22,783 nt of DNA, from positions 1-22,783 of the IMG/VR virus record IMGVR_UViG_3300044949_001271; one strand, written 5' to 3'. Source of the stretch: a virus. This document shows positions 18,490 to 21,139 of the stretch, piece by piece. The translations under genes were made by a program, and so were the position numbers. Every line of letters starts with the position of its first letter. The stretch's first letter is position 1. The notes beneath the pieces were generated by a model. It was not told the DNA's origin and ran no database searches. It saw only the letters and a program-made list of their open reading frames with translations.

Positions 18490-18800
18490 GGGACGAGTTG
18501 CTGGCGCTGAAGGCGCGGCTGGAGCAGTTGCGCTGGGAAGGGAAGACGGACGAGGACATCGACGCCGCGTACTGGACGGTAGATCGGGCGCTTGAGGGGC
18601 GCGGGTGGGGGACACCTACGGCGGCGTTGTCGTACGGTCGTGAGGTGGTGGGGCGGTACGACCAGGCTGCGCGAAGGAAGATTGAGTTGCAGACGCGAGC
18701 GCTGACGAAGGAGGAGCACGACGCGCTGTTGGCGTCGGATGCGCCGAAGTCGGTGTCGCGGGAAGACTATGAGCGGATGATGCGGGAGGCGCAGGAGTGA
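18486..18800 (+). CDS. Small helical protein upstream of terL
   Basis: A 104-aa protein from ATG 18486 (ATGA overlap). The N-terminal helix (RDELLALKARLEQLRWEGKT) and central DAAYWTVDRALEGRGWG are followed by a charged C-terminus (LTKEEHDALLASDAP, REDYERMMREAQE). Its stop overlaps the terL GTG start. No recognised family. Confidence 0.7.
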   Translation: MRDELLALKARLEQLRWEGKTDEDIDAAYWTVDRALEGRGWGTPTAALSYGREVVGRYDQAARRKIELQTRALTKEEHDALLASDAPKSVSREDYERMMREAQE

Positions 18801-21139
18801 CCAAGGAAGAACTCGACCGTTTGATCGCCAAGATGACGCCGACTGAGAAGTCGGAGTTTTTTGCCTTGATCGCGGCTGAGAAGAAAGAGCCGGTGTTCAA
18901 GGACGTGGCGTTTAAGGCGCAGACGGCGTTCTTGGAAGATCCGGCTCGCATGAAGGTGGTGCTGTGTACGCGCCGCTCGGGCAAGTCGTATGGCGCTGGC
19001 TTGATGCTAATGCGGGATGCGTATGAGACACCCAACGTGTCGTGCTTGTACGTGGCGCTGACGCGGGCGTCTGCCAAGCGGATCATGTGGAAGGACGTGC
19101 TGAAGACGATTGACCGTGAGCAGGCGCTTGGGTGCCGGTTCAACGAGACTGAGTTGTCGGTGACGCTGCCCAACGGGAGCATGATTTACCTGCTGGGCAT
19201 GGACGCGGACGAGCAGGAAAAGGACAAGGCGCTCGGTCAGAAGTTCAAGAGCGTGGTGATCGATGAGGCTGCGTCCTACGGCGTGGACTTGCATGAGATG
19301 GTGTACGGCATTTTGAAGCCGGCGACGGCTGACTATCGCGGCACGATTGCGATGATCGGAACTCCCGGCAACATGAAGCGCGGGTTGTTTTACGACCTGA
19401 CGAAGGGCCAAGTGCCGGGGGAGTCGGGTCGCTGGGAGAAGATGGGCTGGAGCGGCCATCGCTGGACGGCGTTCGACAATCCGCATATGGCGGACAAGTG
19501 GAAGGCAGAGATTGAGGACTTGAAGTTGGCGAACCCGCTGATCGAGGAAACGCCGCTGTTTCAGCAGCACTACTTGGGCAAGTGGGTGATCGACGACAGC
19601 AACCTTGTGTACCGTTTTGACTACGAGAAGAACACGTTTGACGAGTTGCCGGCGATCACCAAGAAGGGGCGCTGGCACTATGTGCTGGGCATTGACCTTG
19701 GGTTCAACGACCCGACTGCGTGGGTGGTGTGCGCGTATCACGACAGCGACCGGACCCTGTACGTGCTCGGGGCGCACAAGAAGGACAAGTGCGACATCAC
19801 CGAGGTCGCGGACCAAACGCGCAAGTTGATGGGACGCTTTGACTTTGATCGGATCGTGATCGACAACGCCAACAAGCAGGCGGTTGAGGAGATGCGGCGT
19901 CGGCATGACATCCCGCTTGTGGGCGCAGAGAAGGCGGGCAAGGCTGACTTTATGGAACTGATGAACGGCGACTTTGTGAGTGCGCGGATCAAGTTGCACA
20001 AGAAGGCGGCTGCGCCGTTGATTGACGAGTACTCGCAACTGATCTGGGACGACCGGAGCCAGAGGCGCGAAGAGCATCCTGGGTGTGCCAACCACGCTTG
20101 TTTTGTGGACGGCACTTTGGTGACAACCGCACGCGGCGATGTGCCGATTGAAACGGTCAACGATCAAGATTGGGTGCTGACCAGAGATGGCTGGCAACCT
20201 GTTGATTGGTGTGCGCCCACGGGAGTGAAGCCGGTTTACAGGCTTGATTTTACTGACGGCAGATCGTTGACCGGGACGGCTGATCATCCTGTTTGGACAG
20301 AGCACGGGTGGAAGCAATTGATTGACTTGACCGCAACAGACGTATTTGTTACGTCAGTTGCACCATGCGAAAAGAATACACCAAAGGCAAGGCTGAAACC
20401 GTGGAGTGGAACGGGCTTGTTTGGCGAAGGTGGCCTGAGTCCACAAGGCGCAGTGATCGCGTCTACTTCAAGAACCACACGACATGGCTACACCGAGCCG
20501 TTTGGGAGCATCACAACGGACCCGTACCCAAGGGGTTCCATGTTCACCACAGGGACGGCAACACTCTTAACAACGACATCTCCAATCTGGAATGCGTTGT
20601 ATCCCGCGAGCACCATCGGCACCATCACGCAACCGCTAGCGATGATGTTAAGGCCAAGCGTCGAGCAGGGATTGCCAAGGCGCAGTTGGCAGCGCCTAAG
20701 TGGCACGCTTCTCCAGAAGGCCGTGAGTGGCATCGACAACACGCTAAAGCGGTTGCGGCAAATCGCCCAGACGTGGTGGTTCAATGCGAGGTCTGCGGCA
20801 TTGAGTTCAAGGCCAAGCATTCAACGCGCCGAGTTTGCGGTGGAACGTGTTACGCCAGACGGCACCGCGCGCGTTTGGGCGCTAAGAGTCTCTGGAAAGC
20901 CTGAGTATTTTGCTAACGGCGTGTTGGTGCACAACTGTGACGCGGCGTTGTACGCATGGCGGCACTGCTACGCCTACCTATCGGACATGAGGCAGGACAA
21001 CGGGCTGCGTTACGGCAAGAGCGAAGATGAGTGGATGTTGATGCAGGAGGAGCAAGAGTTGGAGCGACTGCTGCAAGAGAAGCGGAACATGGAAGCGGAG
21101 ATTGAGTTGTACGGCGACCCGCTGGATCAACTGAACTAA
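18797..21139 (+). CDS. terL: Terminase large subunit interrupted by an intein
   Basis: A 780-codon frame from GTG 18797 (GGAGGCGCAGGAG upstream) encodes TerL plus a 279-aa intein; spliced TerL would be 501 aa. The ATPase domain has CTRRSGKSY (Walker A, 57-65) and VVIDEA (Walker B, Asp156-Glu157). The RNase H-like nuclease has LGIDLGFND (Asp300), IVIDNANK (Asp356) and, after the intein, CDAALYAWRHCYAYL (Asp715). Residues 435-713 are the intein, beginning at Cys435 and ending His-Asn before Cys714. The final catalytic aspartate is therefore separated from its domain until splicing, so the uncut precursor should lack nuclease activity. The C-terminal end is a charged coiled coil (MLMQEEQELERLLQEKR). 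Confidence 0.95.
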   Translation: MTKEELDRLIAKMTPTEKSEFFALIAAEKKEPVFKDVAFKAQTAFLEDPARMKVVLCTRRSGKSYGAGLMLMRDAYETPNVSCLYVALTRASAKRIMWKDVLKTIDREQALGCRFNETELSVTLPNGSMIYLLGMDADEQEKDKALGQKFKSVVIDEAASYGVDLHEMVYGILKPATADYRGTIAMIGTPGNMKRGLFYDLTKGQVPGESGRWEKMGWSGHRWTAFDNPHMADKWKAEIEDLKLANPLIEETPLFQQHYLGKWVIDDSNLVYRFDYEKNTFDELPAITKKGRWHYVLGIDLGFNDPTAWVVCAYHDSDRTLYVLGAHKKDKCDITEVADQTRKLMGRFDFDRIVIDNANKQAVEEMRRRHDIPLVGAEKAGKADFMELMNGDFVSARIKLHKKAAAPLIDEYSQLIWDDRSQRREEHPGCANHACFVDGTLVTTARGDVPIETVNDQDWVLTRDGWQPVDWCAPTGVKPVYRLDFTDGRSLTGTADHPVWTEHGWKQLIDLTATDVFVTSVAPCEKNTPKARLKPWSGTGLFGEGGLSPQGAVIASTSRTTRHGYTEPFGSITTDPYPRGSMFTTGTATLLTTTSPIWNALYPASTIGTITQPLAMMLRPSVEQGLPRRSWQRLSGTLLQKAVSGIDNTLKRLRQIAQTWWFNARSAALSSRPSIQRAEFAVERVTPDGTARVWALRVSGKPEYFANGVLVHNCDAALYAWRHCYAYLSDMRQDNGLRYGKSEDEWMLMQEEQELERLLQEKRNMEAEIELYGDPLDQLN
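20099..20935 (+). mobile_element. Intein in terL (protein-splicing element)
   Basis: Block A starts CFVDGTLVTTARGDVPIE with Cys1 (20099-20101). Block B is GTADHPVW with the Thr-x-x-His motif. The C-terminal blocks read ARVWALRVSGKPEYFANG and GVLVHN, followed by the +1 Cys (20936-20938). All nucleophiles for splicing are present. Only about 85 N-terminal and 30 C-terminal residues look like a mini-intein. The middle (about residues 523-682 of the precursor) is Ser/Thr/Arg/Pro-rich and is the out-of-frame reading of the nested HNH gene. Base content dips locally: 20341-20400 is 45% GC against 57% for 19621-19680. Confidence 0.92.
20365..20904 (+). CDS. HNH homing endonuclease nested in the terL intein, different frame
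   Basis: A 179-aa protein from ATG 20365. The HNH core is VHHRDGNTLNNDISNLE (residues 60-76), preceded by YFKNHTTWLHRAVWEHHNG and followed by the His-rich CVVSREHHRHHHA. A C-terminal zinc module (CEVC at 141-144; CGGTC at 158-162) and basic tail ARRHRARLGAK suit DNA recognition. It is read one frame off from TerL, entirely within the intein. An in-frame TGA about 35 bases upstream prevents extension, and no good Shine-Dalgarno is visible before the ATG, so expression could be by weak initiation or by -1 slippage from the intein frame. It would cut intein-free terL alleles to spread the intein; that is inference from the family. Confidence 0.88.
   Translation: MRKEYTKGKAETVEWNGLVWRRWPESTRRSDRVYFKNHTTWLHRAVWEHHNGPVPKGFHVHHRDGNTLNNDISNLECVVSREHHRHHHATASDDVKAKRRAGIAKAQLAAPKWHASPEGREWHRQHAKAVAANRPDVVVQCEVCGIEFKAKHSTRRVCGGTCYARRHRARLGAKSLWKA

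Follow-up and report, generated by a model that had tools for sequence, protein, structure and literature searches.

In the fractured genes that Dassa et al. reported in 2009, an endonuclease gene is said to lie between the two halves of a split intein. In collaborative homing, a free-standing endonuclease is paired with a nearby intron (PMC10448857). The ShiLan domain, described in 2025, is an HNH nuclease gene that lies out of frame within an open host frame, and its authors found no splicing blocks there (PMC11855218); further cases are Pacc40 gp60 and Applejack gp54/55 (PMC12613952). Here we analyze a stretch of 22,783 nucleotides (the window) from an IMG/VR virus record, IMGVR_UViG_3300044949_001271, in which the gene for the terminase large subunit (terL) carries an intein and the intein carries a complete HNH endonuclease gene in a different reading frame. 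We consider this to be very probably a composite homing element, in which two reading frames of one DNA segment encode a class 1 intein and a free HNH homing endonuclease. A preliminary description of the window had suggested that the design is undescribed. This is nearly correct. In the open literature (subscription papers lay outside the search), one precedent for an out-of-frame HNH in an open host frame came up, the ShiLan domain, and nothing that describes such a nuclease within a genuine intein. We rate the dual-frame arrangement of intein and HNH gene in terL as a widespread, structurally distinct form of homing intein for which no description was found.

An HNH gene nested in the terL intein

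The terL precursor (18797..21139, plus strand, as are all features below) is one continuous open reading frame (ORF) of 780 amino acids (aa) that begins with GTG behind a good Shine-Dalgarno sequence, and its predicted spliced product has 501 aa. It matches Terminase_6N (2e-7) and phrog_2, terminase large subunit (1.4e-41), as well as Hint/intein models. The N-extein of 434 aa (18797..20098) contains the ATPase and most of the nuclease domain. It is followed by an intein of 279 aa (20099..20935; Hint_2 and Intein_splicing matches), with Cys1 at 20099, Asn279 at 20935, and Cys as the +1 residue at 20936. All four splicing blocks are present, namely A, B (TADH), F, and G (VHN^C, where ^ marks the junction). 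The N-terminal splicing half (20099..20353) holds blocks A and B, including the TxxH motif at residues 60-63, of which T60 and H63 are conserved in the intein alignment, while the C-terminal half (20831..20935) holds blocks F and G (...VHN) and is likewise conserved. The linker between them (20354..20830) is an out-of-frame shadow of the HNH gene.

An AlphaFold model built from the intein alignment has a confident HINT core at residues 1-80 and 251-280 (predicted local distance difference test, pLDDT, >90), and most of residues 90-207 fall below a pLDDT of 50, so that the linker is predicted to be mostly disordered. With this model, Foldseek retrieved the Ssp DnaB (E 3e-7), Npu DnaB, and Mtu RecA mini-inteins. 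Based on its splicing residues, its modeled HINT fold, and its precise insertion relative to empty alleles (discussed below), the insert is an intact class 1 intein that is predicted to splice.

The HNH gene (20365..20904, 179 aa) lies wholly within the intein, and the terL frame is the HNH frame +1 nucleotide (nt); a possible alternative start is a GTG at 20401. Its product matches the Pfam family HNH_3 (PF13392, 1.7e-17), and its PHROG matches are HNH endonuclease families. The HNH_3 catalytic domain (20485..20619, HNH residues 41-85) carries HHRDGN...NLE...H, with H61, H62, N70, N74, L75, and H83 invariant in the alignment. All four cysteines (C141, C144, C158, and C162) of a C-terminal zinc-binding module (20785..20850, pLDDT >90) are invariant as well. 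The AlphaFold model of the protein is confident (pLDDT 90.6), and its best match in the PDB, a weak one, is the homing endonuclease I-HmuI (fold E 0.1, sequence E 0.027). The preliminary description had read the locus as an intact terL intein with a full out-of-frame HNH gene, and this reading is borne out, with both frames open and the intein blocks in place. The continuous terL frame distinguishes the window from a fractured-gene split intein, which has two ORFs around the nuclease gene, and the position of the HNH gene in a frame other than that of the intein distinguishes it from a classical intein with an in-frame endonuclease.

The two-frame layout is widespread

Searching with the HNH protein yielded 34 loci, and a profile search together with phage and plasmid records brought the total to 151 sequences. 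We detected inteins using hidden Markov models (HMMs) for the N- and C-terminal splicing blocks and counted phase relative to HNH. Before dereplication, both blocks were found in a single open ORF at +1 in 98 loci and at +2 in nine; a few loci had them in two ORFs, 36 had no intein, and one (L131) was in frame. After dereplication at 90%, 140 HNH relatives remained, with a continuous intein at +1 in 88 and at +2 in nine. The layout recurs in contigs with 100% identity and also in more divergent relatives, at 32-77% HNH identity. The +2 members (L061, L072, L077, L085, L087, L089, L098, L108, and L111) may represent a phase switch or a second origin. In-frame homologs, which the preliminary description had named as evidence that would count against it, were absent from the tree's 117 strong-scoring relatives; L131 is a remote relative with a weak HNH score (22) whose HNH is apparently in frame inside an intein-like ORF.

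The residues expected for splicing and nuclease activity are broadly retained in these relatives. In the 93 members scored, the splicing C-terminus plus the following residue reads HNC in 60, SNC in 21, HNS in 4, and SNS in 4, and TxxH is present in 89/93, while the HNH motif is intact in 95/97. The N-exteins (94 scanned) matched PHROG families that are nearly all annotated as 'terminase large subunit' (phrog_2 in 71 members, phrog_979 in 50, phrog_3717 in 40, and phrog_38 in 32), and most TerL exteins of the nested loci are only 12-28% identical to that of the window. In one N-extein, a stretch has a match to a thymidylate synthase PHROG (2e-7), and one nested element may therefore sit in, or beside, a gene other than terL.

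The nested form also occurs in isolated phages and complete records, namely Tetrasphaera phage TJE1, Acinetobacter phage Highwayman, Rhodobacteraceae phage MD07, and Halobacterium plasmid pGSL19. In the annotations of all four, a single gene, terL or Hint-domain, stands at this place with no HNH listed, which indicates that such nucleases are being missed. Contigs from metagenome-assembled genomes (MAGs) with the nested form include a Thermoplasmatales archaeon (L117) and Nitrospiraceae, and the form as a whole spans bacterial and archaeal hosts or their viruses. The archaeal records are the Thermoplasmatales MAG and L141 (Halobacterium plasmid pGSL19_54.9), and in the latter a portal gene adjoins.

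Selection acts on both frames

The preliminary description had put the chance that the intein frame stays open across the HNH gene at about 2 in 10,000 under uniform codon use. Shuffling synonymous codons within this gene gives 2.3% instead, and because chance openness is this high, the window gene alone is weak evidence and the claim is carried by a family-level test. For this, we shuffled synonymous codons within each HNH gene and compared the stops observed with those expected. In the 88 +1 genes together, no stop interrupts the intein frame (0 vs 129.7 expected), and the unused +2 frame has 1101 vs 1162. The nine +2 genes have 0 stops vs 82.7 in the intein frame and 76 vs 59 in the unused +1 frame. 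Free-standing HNH relatives show no stop depletion (91 vs 84.8 at +1, 238 vs 239 at +2). As 'same ORF' is part of how the nested class is defined, the fair checks are the count of continuous vs split loci and a GC-matched comparison. Among loci with both splicing blocks, 107 have them in the same ORF vs 4 split and 1 ambiguous. For genes below 46% GC, the +1 frame is open in 38/38 nested vs 0/10 free-standing genes (p=1.5e-10, a value that shared ancestry makes optimistic). The openness of the intein frame is selected at the level of the family, as had been supposed for the window. That +1 is the commoner phase probably reflects its lower stop content, compared with the other alternative frame of HNH genes (91 vs 238 stops in the free-standing ones).

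To examine constraint, we compared the window with three relatives (L035, L005, and L006). Substitutions in the overlap concentrate on the third codon positions of HNH (e.g., 41, 20, and 87 changes at positions 1, 2, and 3). In the HNH frame, the nonsynonymous rate (dN) is 0.18-0.29 vs a synonymous rate (dS) of 1.2-2.1, for a dN/dS of ~0.1-0.2, and the HNH protein is under purifying selection. In the intein frame, dN ~ dS across the overlap except over block F. This, together with the excess of changes at HNH third positions, indicates that the linker is free to vary apart from stops, and along with the low pLDDT it agrees with the earlier view that the middle of the intein is a shadow. The locus is also a clear natural example of two genes overlapping at length, where one frame codes and selection on the other merely keeps it open.

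The last 26 HNH codons (20824..20901), which lie over block F, are the only place where HNH third-position changes are suppressed: 4/26 vs 83/153 in the remainder (p=2e-4), 5/26 vs 76/152 (p=0.005), and 7/26 vs 84/153 (p=0.01). Codon positions 1 and 2 show no significant decrease there. The HNH tail and block F are both constrained where they overlap, as expected from the earlier remark that this tail runs into codons of the splicing block. The HNH stop falls 31 nt before the intein end in the window and 31-85 nt before it in nearly all members, which makes the overlap with block F a fixed part of the design.

Occupied and empty terL alleles

The insertion point is nearly always the motif (N/D)H^C-DA..Y of the TerL nuclease domain. 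A terL search recovered intein-free alleles (L152-L154) whose N-extein protein is 100% identical to that of the window. Relative to the window, these alleles lack exactly the 837-nt intein. Their flanks are 95-98% identical to those of the window, with 93-96% DNA identity closest to the intein and up to 98% in neighboring genes. Codons just outside the intein also differ, reading HA^C in the occupied and HCT in the empty allele; the empty site of the L152 type is ...AACCACTGCACGGACGCG... Further sets of occupied and empty alleles are L160 with L161-L165 and L171 with L169. Alleles with an intein and no HNH gene were not found in the terL group of the window by either the terL search or a search with the intein N-block, and every intein-bearing allele there had the out-of-frame HNH. 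Two records with an empty terL (L173 and L181) have an HNH motif at about 1294, ~1.2 kb upstream of terL, which may mark a related nuclease in free-standing form.

Expression of the HNH gene and the proposed mechanism

Across 91 nested genes, the Shine-Dalgarno energy at the HNH ATG has a median of -5.4 kcal/mol vs -2.4 kcal/mol at other out-of-frame ATGs in the exteins (p=1.6e-7), and several nested genes have a perfect AGGAGG before the ATG. Just upstream of the HNH start in the window (20335-20364), the segment GTATTTGTTACGTCA is conserved, including at synonymous positions, in the window and in the three relatives used for the constraint analysis, and in these four sequences it is possibly a start signal that replaces the Shine-Dalgarno sequence.

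In the composite element that we favor, reading of the terL frame would give a precursor in which the intein folds as an ordinary HINT domain, with the codons that overlap HNH forming a floppy loop between the splicing halves. The intein would then splice itself out to leave a functional TerL, and an internal start in the other frame would supply a separate HNH protein. This protein would cleave terL alleles that have no intein, at the conserved motif of the nuclease domain, and repair would copy the intein, along with the nested HNH gene, into the cut terL. The association of the HNH family with terL lends indirect support to such a target specificity. Selection on the linker would consist of staying stop-free, with shared constraint only at the HNH tail over block F.

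Several points weigh against this interpretation. Splicing, internal initiation, HNH expression, cleavage, and homing are all computational inferences. The empty and occupied alleles are a presence/absence polymorphism that loss of the intein could also explain, and the 97 nested loci share ancestry and cannot be counted as independent events. In a few members, the end reads ADS, QNT, or VNS rather than H/S-N-C/S, so not all members need be active. Moreover, the window HNH ATG itself lacks a Shine-Dalgarno sequence (+0.6 kcal/mol). This last point, together with an HNH frame that is open for 13 codons upstream of the ATG, is what could be expected if programmed ribosomal frameshifting produced a TerL-IntN-HNH fusion in place of an internal start. 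We nevertheless regard frameshifting as quite improbable, given the family-wide Shine-Dalgarno enrichment at the HNH ATG, the MRK start common to the four closest relatives, and the lack of an obvious slippery heptamer when the short open stretch was read by eye. Somewhat less improbable, though still unlikely, is that the HNH protein is a terL-linked packaging nuclease, like HK97 gp74, that is stored in terL and is not the homing endonuclease of the intein. Terminase-adjacent HNH proteins can assist cos cleavage (PMC10448857), and the strong free-standing relatives all lie beside terL. However, very close terL alleles exist without intein and HNH (these are fragment records, in which an HNH elsewhere is still conceivable), the distribution is patchy, and the nearest relative of solved structure, I-HmuI, is a homing endonuclease, though the match to it is weak.

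The remaining alternatives concern the nature of the insert itself. An insertion of the ShiLan type, in which an out-of-frame HNH is tolerated as a loop, nothing is spliced, and the HINT-like parts are degenerate, has a published precedent with an open host frame, also at +1 (PMC11855218). We judge it very unlikely here, since blocks A, B, F, and G and the catalytic residues are conserved across the family, the HINT model is confident, block F is under dual constraint, and our intein HMMs found no splicing blocks flanking the ShiLan HNH. The insert also interrupts a conserved TerL nuclease motif, so its removal would be needed. That the insert is an RNA intron which splices itself and contains an HNH ORF, with the terL frame open by accident, has next to no probability: phage group I introns commonly hold HNH genes, but an Rfam search of the insert gave no intron match down to E=10 and only three sub-threshold snoRNA matches, and against an accident stand 97 loci that are stop-free under selection and intein motifs conserved at both ends. 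Lastly, two compensating indels from sequencing or assembly could in principle make an ordinary intein with an in-frame HNH look like this locus. We consider such an artefact, which the preliminary description had allowed for, to be excluded, as the same HNH and intein occur in other contigs, the layout is kept in 97 non-redundant two-frame loci to ~32% HNH identity and in two phases, the HNH stop lies 31-85 nt ahead of the intein end in nearly every locus, isolated phages and a complete plasmid have the layout, and no strong match is in frame.

Free, nested, and split states of one HNH family

Three arrangements of this HNH family bear on its history. The free-standing strong matches, 17 before dereplication, all lie within ~3 kb of terL. 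The nested form occurs in two phases. Lastly, four relatives (L149 from Lactobacillus phage CL2, L120, L084, and L093) have a split layout with the HNH gene between intein halves; L121 was excluded from this class because of ambiguous bases at the junction in its contig. In the split layout, a terL ORF that ends in the intein N half is followed by the HNH gene and then by a short ORF, which encodes the intein C half plus the TerL C-terminus and overlaps the HNH 3' end. These four are predicted to be natural split-intein TerL proteins. In L149 (KR905067.1, 454-2771), the C-terminal ORF is not annotated in CL2.

On the HNH tree, the free, nested, and split states are interleaved, with 14 changes in all, of which the +2 phase needs just two. 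Many inner branches are weakly supported, and we therefore claim no order for these states. We lean, by a small margin of confidence, towards the view that the dual-coding intein, with its splicing domain and its homing nuclease as two separate proteins on overlapping frames, forms a distinct and widespread class among mobile elements, and that it arose or was re-phased at least twice, as its two phases suggest, from a free-standing terL-associated HNH landing in a mini-intein. It is an open question how inteins acquire endonucleases, and another how split inteins originate; both are usually argued from endpoints. Because one HNH family shows free-standing, nested (in two phases), and between-split-halves states around a single target gene, the order of events becomes testable here. 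If the view above is correct, stops in the linker would turn a dual-coding intein into a split one that has the nuclease gene between its two parts, and evolution would thereby have a direct path to natural split inteins and to fractured genes.

Comparison with known systems

The ShiLan domain resembles the window in having an out-of-frame HNH, an open host frame, a +1 phase, no Shine-Dalgarno sequence, and a patchy distribution. It differs in that it has no intein blocks, so that splicing is not predicted, and its host is a dispensable methylase, whereas in the window the host is terL and the carrier an intact intein. The ShiLan HNH has zinc fingers on both sides and weakly matches the profile of the terL-intein HNH; in our set it is ShiLan gp65 (L190; JN020143.1, 4786-7668), a remote HNH relative with the same +1 phase as the terL inteins. 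Inteins in terL are themselves known from mycobacteriophages, where they lie in the ATPase domain (PMC5050341), while those described here are at the nuclease-domain motif. Collaborative homing has a parallel in the free-standing HNH relatives that adjoin intein-free terL, but in the nested loci the nuclease gene and the splicing element are merged in one DNA segment. Fractured genes resemble our four split relatives, with a separate nuclease gene between intein halves; unlike them, the window and the other nested loci keep the host gene whole and need no trans-splicing. With the classical large inteins, the window shares a HINT domain and homing-endonuclease coding DNA between the splicing halves, and it departs from them in that another frame encodes the endonuclease as a protein of its own, so that nuclease and splicing domain do not form a single polypeptide, and the linker is a disordered shadow.
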